Shown: piece by piece, positions 50,813 through 52,743 of the stretch
How the letters are laid out: every line of letters starts with the position of its first letter
Position numbering within the stretch: position 1 is the stretch's first letter
Assembly: GCF_030733745.1 (NCBI RefSeq)
Contig: NZ_JASHIK010000001.1
Coordinates: forward strand, 372,001 to 436,000
Source of the DNA: Stappia sp. MMSF_3263
GTDB taxonomy: Bacteria > Pseudomonadota > Alphaproteobacteria > Rhizobiales > Stappiaceae
Length of the DNA stretch: 64,000 nucleotides
Direction: 5' to 3'
The notes under the pieces: generated by a model
What the model was told of the DNA's origin: nothing
What the model saw: the letters and a program-made list of their open reading frames with translations, nothing else
The model's database searches: none
Translations under genes and position numbers: made by a program

Positions 50813-51250
50813 TCATCTTTCCCGGACCGCCGCGAGACGCAGGATCCGCGCCGCGGTTCCCGGCGTCATCGTCAGTCCGTCCAGTTCGGCAAGCCCGACA
50901 AAGGCGGCGGCCTCCGCGTCATCGCCCGCAACAGGGAGGCCGCCGCCCGCTGTTCCCCTGAACACGGCGATGACGAAGTGGTGGCCGCCGTTCTCCGCCT
51001 CGGGCGGGCCGATCGCCTCGACCAGTTCCACCGGCCGGGACTCGATCTGTGCGGCAAGGCCGGTTTCCTCGGCCAGTTCGCGCCGGGCCGCCTCGTGCAG
51101 GCTCTCGCCAAACTCGACGGATCCGCCCGGCAGGCTCCAGTGGCCGCGAAAGGGCTGCTTGCCGCGCCGGACCAGCAGAACGCGATCCTTGTCGAGGATC
51201 AGCACGCTGACGCCAAGGCGCGGATGAGGGAGGGCGGATGCGTCGTTCAT
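50813..51250 (-). CDS. NUDIX hydrolase
   Basis: A 145-residue NUDIX enzyme. The box is complete: GGSVEFGESLHEAARRELAEETG (residues 42-64, shown here only to identify it; the REUxEE core is RELAEE). The fold begins LGVSVLILDKDRVLLVRRG. Substrate could be a nucleoside diphosphate derivative (MutT-like) or NADH; not resolvable. Start at 51250. Followed downstream by the TIGR02301 gene. Confidence 0.9.
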   Translation of the reverse strand: MNDASALPHPRLGVSVLILDKDRVLLVRRGKQPFRGHWSLPGGSVEFGESLHEAARRELAEETGLAAQIESRPVELVEAIGPPEAENGGHHFVIAVFRGTAGGGLPVAGDDAEAAAFVGLAELDGLTMTPGTAARILRLAAVRER

Positions 51251-51320
51251 GGTCGGCGAGAATGCCACGCCGGGTGAGCGGGGCAAGCGGCTTGTCGCGA
51301 CCCTGGCGGGAGCAGGCCGG

Positions 51321-51827
51321 TCAGGCGAAGAGCGCGTCGATCTCGGCCTGCGAATCGGTTTCGACGGTTTCCGCAGGGTCAAGGTGGCCGTGGATGATGC
51401 CGCTTGCCGTGGCGATCAGGGGTTTGATCTCGTCCGCCGTCTCGCGCGCGATCGCATCGGCGAGCGGAGCGATATCCGCTGCGTCGCGCAGCCGGCCCTG
51501 TTTCTCGCAGACCGCCGTGTTGAGCGTCGCGACCACGTCGCGCAACGCGCGCCGAACGGCGGCGGGAGCGGCATGGAACGCCTCGATCGCGAGGTTCTTC
51601 TCGGCGAAATTGGAAGCCTCGAAATGCTGCTCGTAGCTCAGCGGCTGCCACTCCAGCACCTCCTCGGCGCATTCGGGCATGGCCGGAAGCATCTCGAGCA
51701 TCATGACCACTTCATTGAAATGGTTCAGATAATCGGTGGCGAGACCGGTGTGCGGATTGATATTGGCGGCGACAAGCCTGTCAGCCGACAAATCTCCCTC
51801 GCCCAAGATCATTTCCGCCAAGCTCAT
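51321..51827 (-). CDS. Unknown protein, acidic, helical
   Basis: A 168-residue protein without signal peptide. Features: SLAEMILGEGDLSADRLVAANINPHTGLATDYLNHFNEVVMMLEML (in part: LATDYLNHFNEVVMMLEMLP), then helices and an acidic tail ending SQAEIDALFA. The sequence DYLNHFNEV resembles a conserved hypothetical of alphaproteobacteria. GGAAAGGCGG lies upstream of ATG 51827. Divergent from the SRAP gene. Function not recognised. Confidence 0.7.
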   Translation of the reverse strand: MSLAEMILGEGDLSADRLVAANINPHTGLATDYLNHFNEVVMMLEMLPAMPECAEEVLEWQPLSYEQHFEASNFAEKNLAIEAFHAAPAAVRRALRDVVATLNTAVCEKQGRLRDAADIAPLADAIARETADEIKPLIATASGIIHGHLDPAETVETDSQAEIDALFA

Positions 51828-51945
51828 GTGCCGCCTTTCCGGACAGTTCATGGCGAATCTATCGTCATCGGGTTTCAATTTGCCTAATTCATGGAATGCG
51901 ATACCAACGGGCAGGAGCAATCCCGGGGACACAAGGAGAGCGGCC

Positions 51946-52743
51946 ATGTGCGGACGTTTCGCGCTCAAGCAGAGTCCGGCCGAGGTCAGCGCGCTGTTCG
52001 GATATCGCGGCGATGCGCCAGGTGCGGATTTTCCGCCACGCTACAACATCGCGCCGACACAGCCGATTGCGACCGTGCGCCTTTCCCATGGCGAGCGTCG
52101 CTTTGCGCTCGTGCGCTGGGGGCTCGTTCCCGGATGGGTCAAGGATCCGGCAGCCTTCTCGCTGCTGATCAATGCGCGTGCGGAGACGGCGGCGGACAAA
52201 CCGTCCTTCCGTGCGGCCGTGCGCCATCGTCGCTGCCTCGTGCCGGCCTCCGGCTATTATGAGTGGCACCGCCCGGAAACGGGCGAGAAGACGCCCTATT
52301 ACATTCGCCCGCGCGACGGCGGCATCGTCGCCTTCGCCGGTCTCTGGGAGGAATGGTGCGATCCCGATGGCGGCGAGATCGAGACCGGGGCCCTTCTCAC
52401 CGTCCCGGCAAACGCTGCGCTCGCACCGATCCACCACCGCATGCCGGTCGTTGTCGCGCCCGAGGACTTCGATACCTGGCTCGATGTCGGAGGTACTCCG
52501 CTGAAGGAGGCGCTGGCGCTGCTGCGCCCTGCCGCCGGTGACCTGTTCGAGGCGGTGCCGGTTTCCGGACGGGTCAACTCGGCGCGTGAGGACGACCCGG
52601 CACTGACGACGCCGGTGGCCGCAACGGTACCATGCGCGCCCGCCGAGACGGACACGCAGGCCCCGGCGGACAGGACGAGCCGGGCAACACGCCGGGCCAC
52701 CGGCAGCGCCAGGCCAGACACGGGCCAGCTCGATCTTTTCTAA
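51946..52743 (+). CDS. yedK: SRAP protein (YedK/HMCES-like) with QLDLF tail
   Basis: A 265-residue SRAP-domain protein that covalently shields abasic sites in single-stranded DNA through a Cys2 thiazolidine. Residues: MCGRF (Cys2), YNIAPTQP (Asn34), NARAET (Arg77/Glu79 region), YYEW (Glu106) and HHRMP (His164). A low-complexity tail (about 220-260) ends in QLDLF, the canonical beta-clamp-binding pentapeptide. AAGGAG precedes the start, and Cys2 fixes it. The human counterpart HMCES also carries a clamp-binding PIP box at its end. Confidence 0.93.
   Translation: MCGRFALKQSPAEVSALFGYRGDAPGADFPPRYNIAPTQPIATVRLSHGERRFALVRWGLVPGWVKDPAAFSLLINARAETAADKPSFRAAVRHRRCLVPASGYYEWHRPETGEKTPYYIRPRDGGIVAFAGLWEEWCDPDGGEIETGALLTVPANAALAPIHHRMPVVVAPEDFDTWLDVGGTPLKEALALLRPAAGDLFEAVPVSGRVNSAREDDPALTTPVAATVPCAPAETDTQAPADRTSRATRRATGSARPDTGQLDLF

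Follow-up and report, generated by a model that had tools for sequence, protein, structure and literature searches.

The SRAP gene, its core and its tail

The window, a stretch of 64,000 nucleotides from the genome of Stappia sp. MMSF_3263, contains a gene of the SRAP family, which is read divergently from a conserved neighbor with a NUDIX hydrolase gene behind it. The features of this region are the following:

51946–52743, + strand: SRAP gene (HMCES/YedK family), 265 aa (open reading frame; PF02586, E 6.9e-72; fold match to HMCES/YedK)
51946–52581, + strand: SRAP catalytic core, residues 1–212 (Pfam profile and YedK alignment)
52582–52725, + strand: variable C-terminal extension, residues 213–260 (YedK alignment, model confidence, relatives)
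52726–52740, + strand: QLDLF, putative beta-clamp-binding motif at the extreme C-terminus (translation, conservation, published consensus)
51324–51836, − strand: conserved gene, no Pfam hit reaching the cut-off, divergent from the SRAP gene
50813–51292, − strand: NUDIX hydrolase gene

The translated protein starts with MCGRF and ends with DTGQLDLF, and an alternative upstream GTG start would extend it to 335 aa. The Pfam profile PF02586 covers residues 1–212 (profile positions 1–213 of 214) and has its single match in the 5.02-Mb assembly here. The residues Cys2, Asn76, Glu106 and His163 align with Cys2, Asn75, Glu105 and His160 of the E. coli YedK, in which Cys2 is the cross-linking nucleophile and Glu105 and His160 are the acid–base catalysts (PMC9436759); altogether 72 of 222 residues are identical between the two proteins. 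An AlphaFold2 model built from 25 sequences has a mean pLDDT of 86.1, and its best Foldseek matches are the crystal structures of human HMCES, the Bacteroides SRAP protein BT_1218 and YedK, with E-values from 4.3e-22 to 1.0e-16. The NCBIfam subfamily PRK09951.1 was considered and rejected, since the score of 85.5 against a cut-off of 349 places the protein outside that model. By profile, catalytic residues and fold, the protein is a member of the SRAP family, and from the conserved residues we infer that it caps abasic sites covalently.

In the alignment YedK ends at about residue 224, so that the Stappia protein continues for some 41 residues beyond it. The confidence of the model drops from about residue 230, with pLDDT values below 50 at residues 244–254 and 258–265, and the end of the tail is therefore probably disordered; both the length and the sequence of the extension differ among SRAP relatives. 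The terminal QLDLF, located at the end of this low-confidence, accessible segment, fits the clamp-binding motif given as Q-phi-x-[L/M]-[F/L] in a review of the bacterial sliding clamp (PMC11139829). The same source names QLDLF as the strongest clamp peptide known and states that the affinity of the motif may be increased by negatively charged neighboring residues or a free terminal carboxyl group, and that Ala or Gly at the second position of the motif lowers it. The first-pass annotation of this DNA had described an SRAP (HMCES-like) protein with a flexible tail of about 45 residues and a terminal QLDLF matching the clamp consensus, and each of these elements is borne out by the profile, the retained catalytic residues, the fold matches, the residues past the YedK end and the translation.

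Among 31 order-level loci, which come mostly from one family and extend no further than 1.5 kb from the match to the core, the divergent gene at 51324–51836 was matched in 28 and the NUDIX hydrolase was found near the SRAP gene in 26, and a FAD-linked oxidase lies downstream of the SRAP gene in many. The NUDIX hydrolase is a possible nucleotide-sanitizing partner of the SRAP protein. The product of the divergent gene has a tail of its own that ends in QAx[IV]DA[LM]F in 24 of the 28 rows that could be read (7 of 35 were misread), an end that presumably resembles the CheY-binding peptide of FliM.

The SRAP proteins encoded in SOS operons described by Aravind et al. 2013 (PMC3765255) belong to the same domain family, but the Stappia gene, unlike those, is not located beside imuB-like or dnaE2-like genes, which are found together on another contig, C44. 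A box of the type GTTC-N7-GTTC or GAAC-N7-GAAC was found within 250 nt upstream of the SRAP gene in none of 24 loci (27 were tried, and 3 had no start by the pattern used), and no promoter or terminator match was obtained in the SRAP region. SOS control of the gene was accordingly dropped as an explanation, there being neither a box of these two types in the 24 loci nor an SOS operon, and the name "SOS response associated" is not borne out by these tests.

Conservation of the terminal motif

SRAP relatives were searched for Q-x-x-[LM]-[FL] within the last 12 residues, with the expected counts derived from 400 shuffles of each tail. In the home order the motif is present in 50 of 55 proteins versus 0.26 expected (57 of 61 genomes matched, and G027 and G044 were left out as their genes are in pieces), and if L, I, V, M or F is demanded at the second position, 43 of 55 still comply and 12 fail. 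The five non-carriers include two near misses, namely a QFDLF followed by eight further residues and a QLSFF. At the class level the motif is found in 24 of 58 SRAPs (7 in the strict form) versus 0.19 expected, in a set drawn from 62 matching genomes out of 115 after exclusion of the own genome, which is counted in the order set, and of G126, G153 and G146 (no ORF at threshold). Further alphaproteobacteria have it in 7 of 16 SRAPs (0.05 expected; 8 low-scoring genomes of 24 left out) and the remaining Pseudomonadota in none of 18, by the main pattern and a wider one alike (3 low-scoring genomes left out of 21 matching ones outside the sister class), so that both of these sets lean to better-scoring genes. 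Another, sister class of the phylum, for which all 10 matching genomes were used, has the motif in 5 of 10 SRAPs versus 0.07 expected. Gammaproteobacteria was considered as the class of genome G186 and ruled out on the count of only 48 genomes, which points to some smaller class, "Magnetococcia-like" being a guess.

The wider pattern, which also allows F at the fourth position and covers the last 20 residues, is matched by 52/55, 26/58, 8/16 and 5/10 of the home-order, class-level, further alphaproteobacterial and sister-class proteins, respectively. Its occurrence follows the length of the tail, as among the 129 alphaproteobacterial SRAPs it is present in all 63 with tails of at least 31 residues, in 17 of 23 with tails of 21–30 residues and in 6 of the 43 whose tails do not exceed 20 residues, and the approximately five residues of the motif itself are too few to explain this association. 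The first-pass annotation had named a lack of conservation of the tail motif in relatives as the outcome that would speak against it, and the 50 of 55 home-order proteins and 63 of 63 long tails are the opposite of that outcome. The survey of alphaproteobacterial tails that it had proposed gave a divided answer, with the motif frequent in the home order and patchy across the class, where its absence from 34 of 58 proteins means that it is not universal in Alphaproteobacteria.

Lower-scoring second SRAP copies were left out of these counts. Those of the home order have the motif in none of 13 scored ORFs, some of which are partial (L061 and L069 are in pieces and were excluded), and in one genome, G100, a second copy carries the motif and the best-scoring copy does not (L163 is the second copy). 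SRAP relatives also occur in 66 phage records, where among the 30 matches listed the alignment ends by query residue 216, before the tail, and in 2134 plasmid records.

A tree of 122 SRAP cores without their tails, which included 7 of the 18 other Pseudomonadota, requires 25 changes of the motif label, whereas shuffling of the labels gives 40.4 (none of 500 shuffles as low), and its well-supported branches force at least four changes, with 60 of 119 inner branches weak. A number of changes so far below that of the shuffled labels suggests that the motif is inherited but labile; it is frequent in the home order and patchy in the class, and the tree does not separate gain from loss. In the metagenome-assembled planctomycete L085 (Phycisphaera), the SRAP protein ends in QGGLFEG, a possible independent gain outside the Pseudomonadota.

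A possible tether to the sliding clamp

The single DnaN found in the genome is identical to the E. coli DnaN at 17 of 18 listed pocket residues, and the exception, Val344 replaced by Gly, falls on one of two pocket positions that are called not conserved (PMC11139829). The two DnaE-type polymerases of the genome carry internal QNDMF and QLPLF motifs, and the latter polymerase, encoded beside the imuB-like gene, is taken as DnaE2. DinB and ImuB are usually clamp clients, and the DinB-like and ImuB-like ORFs of the genome have no motif by a simple pattern. The arrangement in the SRAP protein is like that in the known clamp-motif proteins Pol II, Pol IV, Pol V, Pol III alpha, MutL and Hda, in which Q-phi-x-[LM]-[FL] is often placed in a flexible end; the clamp peptide of the E. 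coli Pol II ends in GQLGLF (PMC11139829).

It is thus very probable, as judged from the sequence, that the Stappia protein is an active SRAP enzyme which links to abasic sites via Cys2 and is tethered to DnaN by the terminal QLDLF on its flexible tail. Through Cys2, the core would form a covalent thiazolidine link with abasic sites of single-stranded DNA, while the terminal motif would hold the protein at the sliding clamp. Held in this way, the shield would stay at forks and gaps, in which a loaded clamp sits next to abasic sites of the single-stranded template, and such a site could be capped before it breaks or an error-prone polymerase passes over it. The catalytic part of this mechanism rests on the protein family and the tether on the conservation of the motif, and we infer both the binding to DnaN and a benefit at forks. 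SRAP function as such evidently does not require the tether, given the motif-free proteins in 34 of 58 class-level and 18 of 18 other Pseudomonadota cases and the E. coli YedK, which shares the fold and the four active-site residues with the Stappia protein and, unlike it, ends with the core and has neither tail nor motif.

The conserved end could have other causes. Hydrophobic C-termini can act as degrons, and the end might be a degradation signal for ClpXP or a similar protease that limits the persistence of the protein, for which, of the 51 home-order motifs that lie no more than ten residues from the end, 45 form the very C-terminus, and several short class-level tails have a hydrophobic LF or LL end without Gln (PTLF, PRLL, PKLL, RMLL). 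The motif is, however, elsewhere trailed by 1, 2, 6 or 8 extra residues, and Gln is kept in most long-tailed members, a constancy that is partly built into the search pattern; a degron is thus quite improbable, although the short LF and LL ends are not well explained by clamp binding. Docking of the peptide on another repair partner, such as a translesion polymerase, RecA or an SSB-binding surface, appears improbable as well. A role of SRAP-like proteins as subunits of Y-family polymerases has been proposed (PMC12926913). Acidic residues are also common just ahead of the motif; over 91 motifs, they make up 110 of the 455 residues at the five preceding positions. The Q, L/M and F/L positions nevertheless fit the clamp consensus, with the second position often non-aliphatic outside the home order, and no proline–phenylalanine end, in which SSB-type tails terminate, occurs among the tails read.

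That the motif is a chance or compositional end of a tail which is of low complexity and varies quickly is extremely improbable in view of the 50 of 55 observed, where shuffling of the tails gives 0.26. The motif codons of Q, D, L and F moreover differ by synonymous changes across 13 genomes of the genus, with the residues unchanged, and the second position alone alternates, between L and F. Among mechanically called ORFs of the window and 54 loci, 2 of 492 have such an end, one of them the SRAP protein in its extended reading, which leaves 1 of 491; this control, which retains just the longest ORF where several overlap, therefore did not pick up one further gene of the window, described below. 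At the DNA level, the pattern Q-[LF]-x-[LF]-F-stop occurs at 2 places in the 5.02-Mb genome, both of them ends of family-matched genes in the window, compared to 14 places for the backward pattern, so that the raw count alone indicates no enrichment.

For clamp tethering outside the home order, the second position of the motif is of some concern, as many class-level motifs have G or A there (QGSLF, QASLF). Such weaker-looking variants receive some support from published models in which a QSSLF motif of PolA2 occupies the pocket of the clamp (PMC12926913). It seems fairly likely that the SRAP proteins of Alphaproteobacteria and of the sister class are constitutive clamp clients by way of a gained disordered tail, independent of the end of HMCES, and that tethering arose more than once. 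Constitutive recruitment through the clamp also fits better than SOS regulation.

Human HMCES, which has the SRAP fold in common with the Stappia protein by the Foldseek matches, bears a C-terminal PCNA-binding motif (PIP box). This is a point of general background, and no PIP box is described in the literature passages that mention HMCES; the clamp would be PCNA for HMCES and DnaN for the Stappia protein. The interpretation given in the first-pass annotation is as a whole partly supported, and the convergence with HMCES that it had proposed rests on that motif. At replication forks, HMCES shields abasic sites (PMC9436759). The literature passages on SRAPs offer no explanation of how a bacterial SRAP reaches abasic sites at forks, and YedK has no recruitment tail. 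Bacterial SRAP genes have been linked to polB2 neighborhoods (PMC11791011). The main text of the clamp review PMC11139829 contains no occurrence of SRAP or YedK and that of PMC3765255 none of "clamp", and among the matches listed from the open-licence literature, by titles and the starts of abstracts, no report of a clamp-binding motif in SRAP proteins of bacteria was found. If these SRAP proteins do bind DnaN, the bacterial clamp would gain a new class of client, and a bacterial parallel to the recruitment of HMCES to PCNA would emerge.

A second clamp-like end in the window

The other gene of the genome with a Q-[LF]-x-[LF]-F-stop end also lies in the window:

1543–2721, − strand: PA0069-family radical SAM protein, ends in QLQLF, beside ribonuclease HII (NF033668, E 1.2e-169)
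2716–2730, − strand: LexA-like box GTTC-N7-GTTC, overlapping the ATG at 2721 in the own genome

No open-licence paper was found that mentions "PA0069" and "radical SAM" together, and a radical SAM protein, maybe not of the PA0069 family, is reported as part of LexA regulons in Gram-positive bacteria and Balneolaeota (PMC7739468). In 30 loci taken from 37 genomes with a match, GTTC-N7-GTTC is present upstream of the gene in all 30 and lies 113–169 nt before the profile start in 29. As a control, the box was found in 41 of 180 overlapping segments of 700 nt from these loci, a number of which include the site itself, and in the window the pattern is seen four times versus 1.84 expected, so that the fixed position of the box carries more weight as evidence. 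The Q-[LM]-x-L-[FL] end is likewise kept in 30 of the 30 genomes read, in one case followed by three residues, and the PA0069-family radical SAM protein looks like a second clamp client.
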